The notes under the pieces are model-generated. The model saw only the letters and a program-made list of their open reading frames with translations. It was not told the DNA's origin and did no database searches. From NCBI RefSeq assembly GCF_000830005.1, contig NZ_CP010407.1, positions 5,894,001 to 5,958,000 of the forward strand: DNA of 64,000 nt, in the 5' to 3' direction. The DNA is from Streptomyces vietnamensis. GTDB taxonomy: Bacteria; Actinomycetota; Actinomycetes; Streptomycetales; Streptomycetaceae. Below are positions 26,360 through 32,467 of the stretch, one piece after another (the stretch's first letter is position 1; each line of letters opens with the position of its first letter). The translations under genes were made by a program, and so were the position numbers.

Positions 26360-26938
26360 ATGGGACACAAGGAAGACCTCCTCGAAGGCGCCAAGCGCTG
26401 CCTCCTGGAGAAGGGGTACGGGCGCACCACGGCGCGCGACATCGTCGCCGCCTCGGGCACCAACCTCGCCTCCATCGGCTACCACTACGGCTCCAAGGAC
26501 GCCCTGCTCCAGCAGGCCTTCCTGGCCCTCACCGAGGAGTGGGGCGAGCAGGCCGGGGCGGCGGGCACGGCGGGCGCCGAGGCGCTGCCGGCCGATCCGT
26601 ACGAGCGGTTCCGCGCCGTCTGGGAGCAGGTCATCGCCGCGGCCGGGGCGAGCCGCCCGGTCTGGAAGCTCCAGACCGAGGTGGTCACCCGCATCGACGA
26701 CGACGAGAAGCTCCGCGAGGCCATCAAGGAACCCCAGCGGGAGGGCCGCCTCGGGATGGCCGAGGGCTTCCTCGGCATCGACCCGGAGGCCGACCCGGAG
26801 AAGGCCCGGGTGGCGGGACTCCTCTGCCAGGCCCTGGCGACCGGCGTGATGATCCAGTGGATGGTGGACCCGGAGACGGCGCCGAGCGCGGACGACCTGA
26901 CGGAGGGGCTCAAGGTGCTGATGGGGGAGCGGGGCTGA
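26360..26938 (+). CDS. TetR-family transcriptional regulator
   Basis: A 192-residue TetR repressor. The N-terminal HTH is GRTTARDIVAASGTNLASIGYHYGSKDALL, followed by a helical ligand domain of normal length. No Shine-Dalgarno is seen; the ATG lies 6 nt after TACAGT, so the mRNA is probably leaderless. The large palindrome covering the promoter implies autoregulation. No exporter or enzyme gene lies immediately beside it: serA is upstream, and a convergent membrane gene of the CHAT cassette is downstream. Its regulon and ligand are therefore unknown. Confidence 0.92.
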   Translation: MGHKEDLLEGAKRCLLEKGYGRTTARDIVAASGTNLASIGYHYGSKDALLQQAFLALTEEWGEQAGAAGTAGAEALPADPYERFRAVWEQVIAAAGASRPVWKLQTEVVTRIDDDEKLREAIKEPQREGRLGMAEGFLGIDPEADPEKARVAGLLCQALATGVMIQWMVDPETAPSADDLTEGLKVLMGERG

Positions 26939-26953: not shown

Positions 26954-27811
26954 TCACGCCCCCTTGCGGAAGCGCTCGCTCAGCCGCCGGCCCAGGGCCG
27001 GGGTGACGCGGCCCGACGGCGGGTCCTCTCCCAGGGCCCGGGCCAGGTCGACGGCGTACAGGTCGACCGCCGACTCCGCGAGGTCCGCCAGGCTGCCCGC
27101 GGCGTCCCGGCCGCGTCGCCGGCCGAGCAGCAGCAGGCCGACGCCGACCCCGGCCGCCGGCCACCACTGGATGCCGAGGCACAGGTAGAGCAGGCCCCAG
27201 CCGCTCTGTGCGGAGGCGCTCGTCAGTGCCTGCCGTGCCGCGATCAGGTCGCCCCGGCAGGGTTCCGGCAGCACGATCCACAGCCGGGGCCAGGTGAACG
27301 GGAAGTCGAGTCCGTACTGACCGTGGACCCGGACCCCCACGGCGCGCAGCCGGTCGCCGATCCACGTGGGTCTGGCCGGCTCGGTGAGCGCGACGGCGTT
27401 ACGGGCCTCCACATGGGCGGCCTCGGCGGCCGCGGGGCCGTGCTCGACGGCGTCCGCCTCGTCGTTCCACCGGGCCTTGCGCCGCCGGACGAGCCGGCCG
27501 ACCAGCCACTCCGGGCCGGCTGCCAGCCAGACCCTCTCCACCAGGGAGCCGAGCCCCCGCGCAAGGAGTCCGACCGCCGCTCCGACCAGCAGGAGCGCCA
27601 CCGCGAGGAGCAGGGCCGACACGGGGCGCCGGTCGTAGCGGGCCACCAGGTCCTCGGCGGCGCCGCTCAGCCGCCGCCAGTCGAGGGCGTGCCGGTGGCC
27701 GAGTACGGACGCCGTCGCGGCGAGTGCGGTGAACAGCGCACCCGGCAGGGCGAGGAGCTGCACCCAGCGTTCGGCGAGGCTCTTGCCGAGCGCGGACAGG
27801 AGGGTGTTCAT
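26954..27811 (-). CDS. Integral membrane protein linked to the CHAT gene
   Basis: A 285-residue protein read leftward with ATG at 27811 overlapping the preceding stop (ATGA). It has an N-terminal helix (WVQLLALPGALFTALAATASVLG), a second (SALLLAVALLLVGAAVGLLARGL), a cytoplasmic basic/acidic stretch with WNDEADAVEHG, and a third hydrophobic region near LLYLCLGIQWWPAAGVGVGLLLLG, then a soluble tail. I recognise no named domain. I recall similar membrane proteins beside CHAT/TPR genes in other Streptomyces. It could anchor the effector module or be a membrane target. The 5' extension of the open frame upstream of 27811 is the coupled small gene in another frame. Confidence 0.82.
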   Translation of the reverse strand: MNTLLSALGKSLAERWVQLLALPGALFTALAATASVLGHRHALDWRRLSGAAEDLVARYDRRPVSALLLAVALLLVGAAVGLLARGLGSLVERVWLAAGPEWLVGRLVRRRKARWNDEADAVEHGPAAAEAAHVEARNAVALTEPARPTWIGDRLRAVGVRVHGQYGLDFPFTWPRLWIVLPEPCRGDLIAARQALTSASAQSGWGLLYLCLGIQWWPAAGVGVGLLLLGRRRGRDAAGSLADLAESAVDLYAVDLARALGEDPPSGRVTPALGRRLSERFRKGA

Positions 27812-28158
27812 CCGAAGGTGAACGGCTCGTCGTACACGGCGCATTCGGGCAGCGGGGCACCCGGTCTGCGGTCCTCGACCCGCGAGCACCGCCCACCCGG
27901 GCAGGTGTACGAGCCGGCCGGTGGCGGCGCGGCCTCCTGGCCCGGGAAAGGGGTGTACGCCCGCGGTCGCGCCGGCATGCCCAGGCGTACGCGGACCGCC
28001 TCGAGGACCGCAGCCGCCGGCCGGGTTCCGTCCCGCAACTCGGCCAGGATCCGCTCCAGTTCGGCCGACCAGCCTTCTTGCCTCGCGTCCGCGCGCAGGT
28101 CCGTCAGGTCAGTGCAGAACCATGTCAGCTCGTGAGCGTCCTCGACGGTGTTTTCCAC
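27808..28158 (-). CDS. 116-aa CHAT-associated small protein with Cys motif
   Basis: A 116-residue protein, GTG start with GGAGG 6 nt upstream. The N-terminal half is a short helical bundle (LERILAELRDGTRPAAAVLEAVRVRLG). The C-terminal half is Pro/Gly-rich with a cysteine pattern CPGGRCSRVEDRRPGAPLPEC, which may be a small metal-binding or degenerate zinc-ribbon element. Its stop overlaps the next gene's ATG, so both are co-translated. It diverges from the CHAT gene with 96 nt between start codons. Short partners of CHAT/TPR proteins are known from computational surveys of conflict systems; whether this is the same family I cannot check. Confidence 0.75.
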   Translation of the reverse strand: MENTVEDAHELTWFCTDLTDLRADARQEGWSAELERILAELRDGTRPAAAVLEAVRVRLGMPARPRAYTPFPGQEAAPPPAGSYTCPGGRCSRVEDRRPGAPLPECAVYDEPFTFG

Positions 28159-28254
28159 GCTTTCCTCCCCCTCGCCCGACCTTCACGGAATAGTCTCATC
28201 GTCCGATCGGGAGAGTCATGAATTCGGCACGTTCCATGGGAAGTTGGGTGCGAC

Positions 28255-31200
28255 TTGACCATCAGAGATCTCGCCTTGGAGATGGAACAACTGCTCGCCA
28301 CTTTGTACGAGAGCGGCGATCCGGCGCTCCTGCGGGAACCGGAGGCACAGCGGCTGGCGGACCGGCTGTACTACGCGATCGACTGGTACGCCCCGGCCGA
28401 GGCGGCTCAGGGCGCGCGGATGTTCAACGTCGCACTCCTGTTGGCGGGCTTCCACTGGCACCGCTGCGAGAACTTCGAGGAGGAGATCTCGAAGGAGGAC
28501 GCGAGGCGCGCCACCTTCCTCTACAAGATGGTGTGCCAGGTGGCGCCGCACCTCGTCCCCGAGGTCATCATGAACGTCTATGTGGAGACCGGGGACCCCG
28601 TGGCCGGCCTGAGGACCGACAACCCACTGCCGGCCTACACACAGCTCGGCGTCAACCTGCTCAAGGAGGCGGAGGCGACGGGGGATCCGCGGCTCCTCGA
28701 CGACGCCGCCGAGATGTGCCTGCTCGCGGTGCGCGCGAACCCGCGGGAGGACGTGGTGAAGGCGGAGGCACTCATCACGCTCGGGAACGTCCTCACCCGC
28801 AGATACGAGTTCCTGGGCGAGGAGGACGACCTGGAGCGCGCCTTCATCGTCACGCGCATGGCGGAGGAGCTGATCCCGGAGGGCGACCCGTGCCGCCTGA
28901 AGTTCTGTTCGGGGCTCGGGCACATCGCGATCCGGGAGTTCCAGCGCACGGGGAACCCCGACTCGCTCGACGAAGCGGTCCGGGTCCTGCGCGAGGGCGT
29001 GCGCGGAGCCTCCGAGGACGACCCGCTCCGCGGCGCCGTCATGACCAACCTCACCGCCGCCCTGACCGCGCAGTACGAGGCCGTCGGCCGTTTCGACGCG
29101 GCCACCGAGGCGCTGCAGGCGCAGTTCGAGGCCGTGGGGAACACTCCTGAAGACCATCCCGATCTGCCGAGCCGCCTGGTGAACCTGGCGGGCCTCGTCC
29201 TGGGCCACCCCGGCGAGATCACGGCGGAGTCCGACCGGTACGACCTGGCGATCGGCATGCTCGACAAGGCCCTGTCCCTGCTCCCTGACGGCCATCCCGA
29301 CCGACCGGGTTGCCTGCACACCCTGACCCAGGCGTACGAAGCCCGGTTCAACCTGACGAACGAACCGCGCGACCTGCTCGCCGCCGCCGAGGCGGGCGTG
29401 TCGGCGGTCGAGGCCAGTGCGGTCGGTCACTACCGGCGGCCGATGATGCTGAGAGGGTTCGCCCACTCCCTGAAGGCCTTCGTCGACCGCTTCCCGGATT
29501 CCGGCGGGCTGCTCGACACGGCCGTGGCGGCGCTCCACGAGGCCGATGCGCTGCTTCCCGGGAATCACCCGGATCGCGCGGACGTCCTCAGCGAACTGGG
29601 GTTCATGCTGCGGGACCGGTTCGGGACCGGCGGCGACACCGCCGACCGTGACGGCGCCGTCCGGGCTCTGCGCGGGGCATCCGCCGTCCTCTCCGCACCG
29701 GCCCGGACCCGGGCACGGGCGGCCTCGGCGGCGGGGGACATCCTCGCCGGGGCCCAGGACTTCGCCCGCGCCACCGGCTTCTACGCCCTCGCCCTCGAGC
29801 AGCTCGAACTGACCGCCTGGCGCGGTCTGGAGCGCGCCGACCGGGAACGCCTGATCGCGTCGTTCCCCAGCCTGGCCGCGAACGCGGCGATCTGTGCCGT
29901 ACGAGCGGGGAAGCCGAAACGCGCGGTGAAACTGCTCGAACAGGGCCGCGGCATCCTGCTCGCCCAGGCCCTGGAGACCCGCACCGACCACTGGGAGCTG
30001 CGCGACCGCGCCCCGGAACTCGCCGACCGGCTCGAACAGGTCCTCGACGAACTGGAGCGGTTGCCCGACAGCCCGTCCCGCACGGCGGGATGGGAGCCGG
30101 AGGACCGCCGCCGGGCCGACGAACGCCGCGCCGCCCTGGCCCGGCAGCGGGAGAAGCTCCTCAAGGAGATCCGTGCCCTGCCGAAAATGAAGGGCTTCCT
30201 GCGGTCACCGTCCTTCGCGACCCTGCGCGCCGCCGCCGCACGCGGTCCCGTGGTGCTGCCCGTCGTGAGCACGTACGGCTGCTCCGTCCTCCTCCTCACC
30301 GAGGCTGGGGTGGAGGTGATCGAGCTCGAAACGAGCGCCGAGGAACTGGCGGAACGGGCCGTTTCCCTCGTCATGGCCCTCGACCCCGATCATTCGCCGC
30401 TCAAGGCGCGGAGGACGGTCCTGGACACCCTGGCCTGGCTGTGGGACACGGTGGCCGAGCCGGTCCTCGACGCACTGGGCCGTACGGAGCCGATCGGGCC
30501 GGACGGAGACCGGACCCACGTGTGGTGGTGCCCCACCGGGATCTTCTCGCAGCTTCCGTTGCACGCCGCCGGGCACCATCGCCCCGACGGCGGCGGCGAC
30601 ACGGTGCTCGACCGGGTCGTCTCCTCCTACACACCGACCCTGCGGGCTCTGCTCCACGCCCGTGGCCGGCGCCGGCCGTCCGCCGGACCGGACGGCCGGG
30701 GCCTCATCGTCTCCATGCCCTCCACCCCGGGCGGCCGGGACCTCCCCGCCGCCGCGGACGAGGCCCGGGCCCTGCGTCGGCGCCACCCGAACGCCCTGCT
30801 CGTCACCGGCCCCGCCGCCACCGCGCCGATCGTGCTCGAAGCGCTCGCCGGCTGCTCCTGGGCGCACTTCGCCTGTCACGGCACGCAGGACCTCGCGCAG
30901 CCCTCGCGCGGCGCGCTCATTCTGCACGACGGTTCCCTGACGCTGCGGGACATCGTGGGCCTCCGGCTGCCGCGCGCGGAGTTCGCGTACCTCTCCGCCT
31001 GTGAGACGTCACGCGGCGGGTTCGTCCTGGCGGACGAGGCGATCAGCCTCGCCTCCGCCGTCCAACTGGCGGGCTTCCGGGATGTCGTCGGCACGCTGTG
31101 GTCCATCGACGACACCCTCGCACCGGTCGTCGCGGACCTCGTGTACGAGCATCTGTCCCGGCAGAGCGCCCCCGATCCGGCGGCGGCCCTGGACGGGGCG

Positions 31201-31272
31201 CTGCGCGCGGTGCGGGCGCGGCATCCGCACGCCGTGGCGAGCTGGGGCTCGTACGTCCACGTCGGCCCGTGA
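28255..31272 (+). CDS. CHAT-domain (caspase-like) protease with TPR repeats
   Basis: A 1005-residue cytosolic protein. About residues 20-600 are helical TPR-like repeats with recurring phrases such as LLPDGHPDRPGCLHTL and LLPGNHPDRADVLSELG. A coiled region rich in Arg/Glu follows (about 610-680), then a C-terminal CHAT domain, a clan CD cysteine protease like caspases and separase. The catalytic dyad is intact: His875 in HFACHGTQ and Cys916 in YLSACETSRG. CHAT proteases cleave target proteins on sensing a signal, in plant-like or bacterial death and defence systems. The start is the first codon of the open frame, a TTG with only a distant AAG-type ribosome site; ATG 28279 is possible. It is divergent from two small coupled genes. 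Confidence 0.9.
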   Translation: MTIRDLALEMEQLLATLYESGDPALLREPEAQRLADRLYYAIDWYAPAEAAQGARMFNVALLLAGFHWHRCENFEEEISKEDARRATFLYKMVCQVAPHLVPEVIMNVYVETGDPVAGLRTDNPLPAYTQLGVNLLKEAEATGDPRLLDDAAEMCLLAVRANPREDVVKAEALITLGNVLTRRYEFLGEEDDLERAFIVTRMAEELIPEGDPCRLKFCSGLGHIAIREFQRTGNPDSLDEAVRVLREGVRGASEDDPLRGAVMTNLTAALTAQYEAVGRFDAATEALQAQFEAVGNTPEDHPDLPSRLVNLAGLVLGHPGEITAESDRYDLAIGMLDKALSLLPDGHPDRPGCLHTLTQAYEARFNLTNEPRDLLAAAEAGVSAVEASAVGHYRRPMMLRGFAHSLKAFVDRFPDSGGLLDTAVAALHEADALLPGNHPDRADVLSELGFMLRDRFGTGGDTADRDGAVRALRGASAVLSAPARTRARAASAAGDILAGAQDFARATGFYALALEQLELTAWRGLERADRERLIASFPSLAANAAICAVRAGKPKRAVKLLEQGRGILLAQALETRTDHWELRDRAPELADRLEQVLDELERLPDSPSRTAGWEPEDRRRADERRAALARQREKLLKEIRALPKMKGFLRSPSFATLRAAAARGPVVLPVVSTYGCSVLLLTEAGVEVIELETSAEELAERAVSLVMALDPDHSPLKARRTVLDTLAWLWDTVAEPVLDALGRTEPIGPDGDRTHVWWCPTGIFSQLPLHAAGHHRPDGGGDTVLDRVVSSYTPTLRALLHARGRRRPSAGPDGRGLIVSMPSTPGGRDLPAAADEARALRRRHPNALLVTGPAATAPIVLEALAGCSWAHFACHGTQDLAQPSRGALILHDGSLTLRDIVGLRLPRAEFAYLSACETSRGGFVLADEAISLASAVQLAGFRDVVGTLWSIDDTLAPVVADLVYEHLSRQSAPDPAAALDGALRAVRARHPHAVASWGSYVHVGP

Positions 31273-31285
31273 CGGACGGTACCGG

Positions 31286-32467
31286 TCAGAGCCGGGCCGC
31301 CTTCAGCGCCATGTGCAGCAGCAGGCGGTCCTCGCCGGCGTCCAGGTCGAGGCCGGTGAGTTGTTCGACGCGGGAGAGGCGGTAGTAGAGGGTCTGCCGG
31401 TGGATGCCCAGGGCCGCCGCCGTGCGGCCCGCCTGGCCCGCGTGATCGAGGAACACCTCGGCCGTGCGGGCCAGTTCCGTGTGCGCCGGGGTGAGCAGGG
31501 CGCGGACCGCCGGGTCCGGCTCGGCCGGGGGCAGGGCGGTGAGCAGCCGGTACGGGCCGATGGCCGCCCACTCGGCGAGCGGGCCGAGGTGCGGCTGGGC
31601 GTTCGCGGTGCGGGCCGCCGCGGTGGCCTCGCGCCAGGAGACGTCCAGGTCCGCGAGGCCCCGCCGGGGAGTGGCGACGCCCGTGACGGCGGCGTGCCCC
31701 GCGGAGCCGCGCAGCCGGGTCGCCGCGGTGGTGGCGGGGGAGAGGTTGTCGGCCGACCGGAGGCGTACGAGTGCCGCGAGGGCGCGGGGAGCCCCGCCTT
31801 CGCCGGGGGCCGCACTCCCGGCCGGGGGGCGGGCCGTCGGCCGCCACGGCAGAGTGCACAGGGCCGCCGCGCCCGGGACCGTGCGCGGGGACGGCGCGTC
31901 CTCGTCGGGCCACGGCGCCAGGCACACCACCGTGTGGAGGCCCTCCGCGTCCGGGCCGAGGGCGGTGCGCAGGGCGGTGAGGGCCATGTCGTACTGCCAG
32001 CCGCGGTCCGCCGTCAGCGCGGCCCGCAGCTCCCGGGAGAGGTCGGCCCCGGCACGCTCCTCGTCCGCCAGCAGGTCGCCGATGCGGGCGGCGACCTCCA
32101 TCGCGGCGGTGAGCTGCGCGTGCGAGGGTCCCGGCTCGGCGTCGAGCAGCCATACGTACCCGAGGACGACACCCCGATGGCGTACGGGAAGGCAGATGCG
32201 GTCCCGGAAGACGCCCGCGTCCGGGGCGGCCGGGATGCGGACCGGGCCGGTCGCCCGGGTGATGCCGAAGCCCTCGAACCAGGCGCGGACCGCCGGGGAG
32301 GACTTCCGGGTCAGGATCGAGCGGGTCCTGACCGGGTCCATGGCGCTGTCGTCGTCGCTGTCGTGAGCCCCGAAGGCGATCAGCCCGAAGTCGCGGTTCT
32401 CCAGCGTCGCGGGGGTGCCGAGCAGCGCCGAGATCTCGTCGACCAGCTCCTGGTAATCGCCCTTCAC
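31286..32467 (-). CDS. PucR-family regulator, probably of proline utilisation
   Basis: A 393-residue regulator with a GAF-like N-terminal sensory part ([22 protein letters not shown]) and the C-terminal Puc[40 protein letters not shown]. It is divergent from proline dehydrogenase and pruA, and PucR-type proteins in this position are thought to induce those genes on proline. GTG at 32467 begins the family N-terminus. The 193-nt divergent region holds two small palindromes, CTGTCaGACAG (32496-32506) and ACAGCTGT (32536-32543), as candidate binding sites. It converges on the CHAT gene with 13 nt between stops. Confidence 0.9.

Follow-up and report, generated by a model that had tools for sequence, protein, structure and literature searches.

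A protease of the caspase superfamily, a small cysteine-rich protein, and a membrane protein are encoded side by side in Streptomyces vietnamensis, and there is strong support for the three genes being one real, compact module. They lie in the window, which is the 64-kb stretch of the 9.15-Mb genome that was analyzed, and all coordinates are given relative to it. The protease is a large protein with a CHAT domain, and its gene is divergent from those of the small and membrane proteins (the pair). A sequence-only reading of the same DNA had placed the three open reading frames (ORFs) correctly and taken them as one set, a grouping that now finds strong support. Because the linkage is kept in varying orientation, the trio is absent from the same site in relatives, the three proteins diverge together, and the arrangement recurs across phyla, the genes are best regarded as a single module.

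Conserved linkage in Streptomyces

Among 150 Streptomyces genomes, the membrane protein is matched in 45 and the CHAT protein in 65 (E value of 1e-20), with at most 16 membrane, 30 small, and five CHAT candidates scored per genome. The small protein is matched in 17 of the 150, an underestimate because a single sequence of a short, fast-changing protein was used for the search. Forty membrane-gene loci were fetched, with second gene pieces, contig-end fragments, and most weaker rows omitted, and a CHAT relative is found by tblastn in 37 of these 40 stretches (none in L032, L036, or L040). When profiles are used and the window is included, the small gene adjoins the membrane gene in 35 of 41 loci, a CHAT gene is within 3 kb of the membrane gene in 37, and both are true of 32. 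L066 is scored as lacking CHAT, but the contig breaks off inside a gene matching the repeat part of the CHAT protein. In the 37 loci, the CHAT gene is most often on the opposite strand and upstream of the membrane gene, as in the window (24 loci), followed by same-strand upstream (seven), same-strand downstream (five), and opposite downstream (one).

Chance neighbors can be rejected as an explanation, since about 0.3% of genes would be expected to have a CHAT gene within 3 kb compared to 36 of the 40 fetched loci, the window being excluded; CHAT matches number 92 over the 41 genomes, or about two per genome. Protein distances also correlate between the membrane and CHAT proteins (r = 0.84, 36 loci), the membrane and small proteins (r = 0.65, 35 loci), and the small and CHAT proteins (r = 0.70, 31 loci). 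In each case, none of 5,000 shuffles is as high, although the shuffles leave shared ancestry in place. Housekeeping linkage is rejected as well because serA and the PucR-ProDH-P5CDH genes persist in relatives without the trio, and no other gene recurs like the trio among the clustered called neighbors.

The protease and its partners

The CHAT family, PF12770, matches the window protein at 148.6 bits (cut-off 24) and is its sole Pfam match at an E value of 0.001. The catalytic dyad had been described as intact, and this holds: His875 and Cys916 are invariant across 31 CHAT proteins of membrane-gene loci, window included. All CHAT domains aligned in three further sets retain both residues (38 of 38, 23 of 23, and 46 of 46), after eight of 115 rows, each of fewer than 200 residues, were dropped. 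The long TPR array described along with it fares less evenly. TPR families are called in relatives (14 of the 31 proteins, window included, have TPR_10 and 12 have TPR_12, among the 25 of 41 matched Pfam families listed), and the CHAT family profile matches TPR structures, but the repeats of the window protein are degenerate, with TPR_12 at only 17.4 bits (cut-off 30.1). The same profile matches Csx29 chains (e.g., 7y9x_B, E value 4.6e-13). In PADLOC-DB 2.0.0, there are zero matches for the three window proteins, while the 31 CHAT proteins match four models, one or two matches each.

The membrane protein of the window has hydrophobic segments at residues 19-37, 66-84, and 210-228, and three such segments are present in 32 of the 42 membrane-protein rows scored, the window among them. 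Its predicted structure is all-helical (mean pLDDT 95.1), and structure comparison of the model gave no good match. The small protein has a three-helix N-terminal part and then a Cys-rich tail resembling rubredoxin or a zinc ribbon. Across 33 rows of its family, C86, C91, and C106 are invariant and C15 is kept in at least 90%; the consensus of the Cys motif across the wider family is CPECDYTWYRREVGEPVPSCPTHG. A hydrophobic segment was not found in the small protein, in which the best 19-residue mean is 0.58, and 0 of 37 rows reach 1.4. The small-protein alignment, A1, omits four of 37 rows (L032, L064, and one each of the two for L065 and L066), and the membrane-protein alignment, A2, omits three of 42 (L036 and both L040 pieces).

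The sequence-only reading could not assign the small partner to a known family, which agrees with the searches: neither it nor the membrane protein has a meaningful match in Pfam, NCBIfam, or PADLOC. When 39 membrane proteins are compared with Pfam, each matched family is found in at most two proteins (best such E value 0.098), and for 33 small proteins each matched family is found in only one. The closest named relatives are from Streptomyces, for example, a small protein 67% identical in Streptomyces gardneri, and the 48 small-family proteins found are titled “hypothetical” or “uncharacterized” or have no title.

Two variants of these families were seen in passing. A small gene at L040:8940-9263 seemingly has a helix-turn-helix N-terminus that is perhaps transposase-derived; HTH_23 is matched by one unspecified member of the 33 small proteins (1e-5). 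A protein distantly related to the membrane protein is encoded in the same genome as the window (L157:8543-10537, about positions 29,500-31,500 of contig 1), where its gene adjoins one that by eye is protein-kinase-like, in a stretch with no CHAT or small profile match.

The pair beyond Streptomyces

The Streptomyces membrane profile matches a Nostoc protein at 1.1e-60, so the membrane proteins of the two are clearly homologous. The small profile is weaker, with 4.1e-4 for Nostoc and 14 of 64 wide loci matched. In Nostoc sp. C052, the order is small gene, membrane gene, and a gene for a 1557-residue protein with NA-iREase1 and WD40; “caspase family protein” is the record’s label, and NACHT is our own reading, outside the 25 of 65 matched families listed. 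The order in Rhodococcus opacus is small, membrane, and CHAT, and the small protein there has a match to the wide profile but none to that from Streptomyces. A membrane-protein match is also present in fifteen plasmid records.

A scan of GTDB with a five-member alignment (A4) of a sister membrane subfamily, which is not a census, matched at least 80 stretches, and at least 62 loci were confirmed. Among these, 46 have the small gene upstream in the same orientation, 46 have CHAT within 3 kb, and five have a C14 caspase within that distance (L163-L167). All three genes are present in 38, and CHAT or C14 is within 3 kb in 50 of 62; with CHAT near the membrane gene in 37 of 41 Streptomyces loci, this refutes the alternative, raised by the sequence-only reading against itself, that the pair always accompanies unrelated genes. 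By record title, the loci belong to cyanobacteria, Chloroflexi/Anaerolineae, Actinomycetes, one Desulfobacterales bin, and one Acidobacteria bin. The pair is therefore in five phyla by title, and a protease is detected beside it in four: the Acidobacteria bin (L203) has all three genes, and the Desulfobacterales bin (L183) has the pair with no protease within 3 kb.

The protease beside the pair is exchanged. In Pfam, the C14 loci include C14-nSTAND1 (L165), C14-NB-ARC (L166), NA-iREase1 with WD40 (L164), and nSTAND1 with WD40 (L167), the last two among the 25 matched families listed for each; the caspase part of L163, L164, and L167 comes from our own C14 profile. In L166, the pair is additionally preceded directly by a CHAT gene. 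Separately, two tandem genes matching the C14 profile follow the small-membrane pair of Anabaena subtropica (L164:8996-16902).

CHAT genes with other partners

When the 55 best CHAT matches are examined, 27 prove to have a membrane-gene match within 8 kb and the other 28 to have none, a mixed answer to the concern that CHAT homologues might rarely occur with the pair. Of those 28 loci, 20 were fetched, and the profile found a membrane gene in L107. A different family of about 225 amino acids is present in nine of the 20 (L098, L100-L105, L109, and L110). DUF6338 (PF19865) was identified in the single member scanned (E value 2e-65), and the seven members displayed have three hydrophobic segments each. 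This family represents a second CHAT-membrane pairing. In three others of the 20, the gene next to CHAT encodes a membrane protein of yet another family, with two or three hydrophobic segments (L099:5540-6594, L106:6179-6847, and L112:5121-5966). In L099, an overlapping gene for a 133-residue Cys-rich protein precedes the membrane gene, in parallel to the small-membrane pair. At L044:8837-16948, two CHAT genes face each other beside a single membrane gene.

On a tree of 61 CHAT domains (midpoint rooting, bootstrap unsettled, two short rows dropped), the label “with membrane gene” changes 11 times compared to 18.3 in shuffled labels, and 0 of 500 shuffles are as low. Partner choice thus appears to be inherited yet repeatedly changed.

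The locus and its chromosomal site

The features of the locus are collected in Table 1. The ATGA reported to lock the small and membrane genes together is present at 27808-27811, where the stop of the former overlaps the start of the latter, and a Shine-Dalgarno-like GGAGG precedes the GTG of the small gene. The start codon of the CHAT gene is uncertain, being either TTG 28255, on which the numbering is based, or ATG 28282. The gap between the divergent genes may act as a shared control region.

Table 1. Features of the three-gene locus, in window coordinates.
Feature	Position	Strand	Basis or remark
TetR-type gene (presumed name, by resemblance)	26360-26938	+	flanks the trio
Membrane protein gene, 285 aa	26954-27811	-	ORF; constant membrane component
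Small protein gene, 116 aa	27808-28158	-	ORF; GTG start 28158
Cys motif C86-x4-C91-x14-C106 of small protein	27841-27903	-	alignment of small family
96-bp gap between divergent start codons	28159-28254	no strand	between small and CHAT genes
CHAT protease gene, 1005 aa from TTG	28255-31272	+	ORF; Pfam; degenerate TPR-like helical repeats N-terminal
CHAT (caspase-superfamily) domain, residues 724-1004	30424-31266	+	PF12770, E 3.5e-43
His875 codon, catalytic dyad	30877-30879	+	alignments
Cys916 codon, catalytic dyad	31000-31002	+	alignments
PucR-type gene (presumed name, by resemblance)	31286-32467	-	flanks the trio

PucR is matched in 19 of the 31 genomes examined, that of the window included. 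In eight relatives, the stretch from serA to PucR has no membrane, small, or CHAT profile match, and the trio has therefore been added at a site that varies, as a module gained and lost. At the other PucR loci returned, no match to a trio protein was found inside the 1.5-kb flank. PucR directly follows serA in G003 and G006, and in G013, 27 bases separate it from a TetR gene (51% identical). In G004, where TetR is 89% identical, a DUF1266 gene fills the TetR-PucR gap, and a gene in the gap of G015 is similar to it by eye. The genes in this gap of two close relatives are L138:5921-7069 (DUF1266, scanned) and L139:6679-7830 (similar by eye), and the gap resembles a variable insertion spot.

A possible role in cell death

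A role in conflict or cell death can be proposed for the trio because of family precedents and its distribution. In the mechanism that we favor, to which we give slightly less than an even chance, a sensor-protease acts on or through the constant membrane pair in a cell-death or abortive-infection response. The cue, perhaps infection, would be sensed by the non-protease part of the large protein, namely, the degenerate TPR repeats in the window protein or, in some proteins of cyanobacteria, the WD40 and STAND-NTPase modules. The caspase-superfamily protease of the same protein (CHAT in the window, C14 in some cyanobacterial versions) would then be activated, and the small zinc-ribbon-derived protein may be an adaptor that couples it, by direct contact, to the helical membrane protein. 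The activated protease would act on or through the pair, and the membrane protein may be the substrate that is cleaved or released, so that the cell membrane is damaged or growth is stopped, with cell death or abortive infection as the likely output. The pair is taken to be the target or the route of the protease because it stays while protease and sensor are exchanged.

A broader and more tentative proposal is that the constant zinc-ribbon-derived adaptor and helical membrane executor could form an immune or cell-death chassis, an NLR-like membrane system gated by proteolysis and distinct from gasdermin, for exchangeable caspase-superfamily sensor-proteases (CHAT-TPR, C14-nSTAND1, C14-NB-ARC, and C14-NACHT-WD40, in which NACHT is presumed).

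Two observations weigh against a strict trio. A membrane gene lies near no more than 27 of the 55 top CHAT matches, and there is no protease nearby in 12 of the 62 GTDB loci (L169, L177, L178, L183, L198, L202, L206, L208, L209, L216, L218, and L219); the large neighbors in nine of these are mostly ordinary genes, and L216 has a weak NACHT match below the cut-off. The NACHT assignment and two of the caspase assignments are our own, and no protease is seen in one of the five phyla; because of these last two points, our confidence is slightly lowered.

The constancy of the pair while the protease and its attached domains vary would also suit a sensor or anchor that detects envelope stress and switches on a protease with substrates elsewhere, and the constant membrane component beside the caspases of EACC1 is proposed as such a sensor in a section of PMC7159879. 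We consider this rather unlikely since sensor-type modules (TPR, WD40, and STAND NTPases) are already part of several large proteins, and a second sensor is not needed; in our judgment, the executor role of the membrane pair is to be preferred to a sensor role. Streptomyces and many of the cyanobacteria found in the GTDB scan are filamentous, which favors a module of developmental or cell-division proteolysis rather than immunity. The HetF CHAT protein of Anabaena, a divisome component with a transmembrane segment and TPR (a passage of PMC8406250), would be the precedent. This is improbable given the patchy presence of the membrane gene (45 of 150 Streptomyces), which is ill-suited to a core division function, as well as the plasmid copies, the variable site, and the repeated partner change. 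That the small and membrane proteins are an immunity- or antitoxin-like brake, restraining a toxic protease at the membrane in an inactive state, would agree with their tight coupling and divergence from CHAT in 24 of 37 loci with CHAT but is very unlikely. A membrane gene is missing near 28 of the 55 top CHAT matches, so a brake is not needed universally, and no protease is seen near the membrane gene in 12 of the 62 wide loci.

To our knowledge, the target is known for few bacterial caspase-like proteases. With the protease exchanged among unrelated architectures and the pair constant, the pair becomes a natural candidate for the substrate or output. The executor reading provides a concrete substrate hypothesis, and the pair may define a membrane executor beside the gasdermins.

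Comparison with known systems

No description of the trio was recognized in the open literature; most subscription papers and preprints are outside this coverage, and an earlier description is possible. The nearest named system by content is CATRA, a name that appears in PMC8195603 and in a legend of PMC12657218; it likewise has a caspase-superfamily protease with TPR repeats and a predicted role in conflict. The trio differs in that its small protein has no CATASP match and its membrane component is unmatched in Pfam. Membership by CATASP (PF20271) was rejected, as it is absent from the families listed at an E value of up to 1 for the window protein and for the 33 members, window included; a genome search with PF20271 is uninformative because its controls were silent. 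Csx29, the TPR-CHAT protein of Craspase (type III-E CRISPR), shares the order of TPR then CHAT, and its chains are those matched by the family profile. Membership was again rejected, as the NCBIfam Csx29 model scores 40.7 bits, far below its cut-off of 300.

Gasdermins are alpha/beta proteins and are soluble before cleavage. Gasdermin systems with CHAT or another protease, as described in parts of PMC12881547, resemble the trio in having CHAT and repeats beside a membrane-acting partner, and the same parts report a fungal gasdermin activated by a TPR-bearing CHAT protease. In the trio, however, the partner is modeled as an all-helical membrane protein, and there is an extra small Cys protein. 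The membrane protein of the window has no Pfam match, and its all-helical model is without a good structural counterpart.

EACC1, a two-gene system, pairs a constant membrane component with a protein of the caspase superfamily whose other modules vary, and membrane sensing is proposed by its authors; as described in PMC7159879, that component has one transmembrane helix, and the caspase of its partner is N-terminal. The trio instead has three hydrophobic segments in its membrane protein, an additional small gene, and CHAT at the C-terminal end, and assignment to EACC1 by a single transmembrane helix fails, with three segments in the membrane protein and none in the small one. HetF of filamentous cyanobacteria likewise combines CHAT and TPR, but its CHAT is N-terminal and it carries its own transmembrane segment (a passage of PMC8406250), whereas in the trio, CHAT is C-terminal and the membrane and small proteins are separate. 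The trio is classed among the caspase-linked conflict systems, as a new form.
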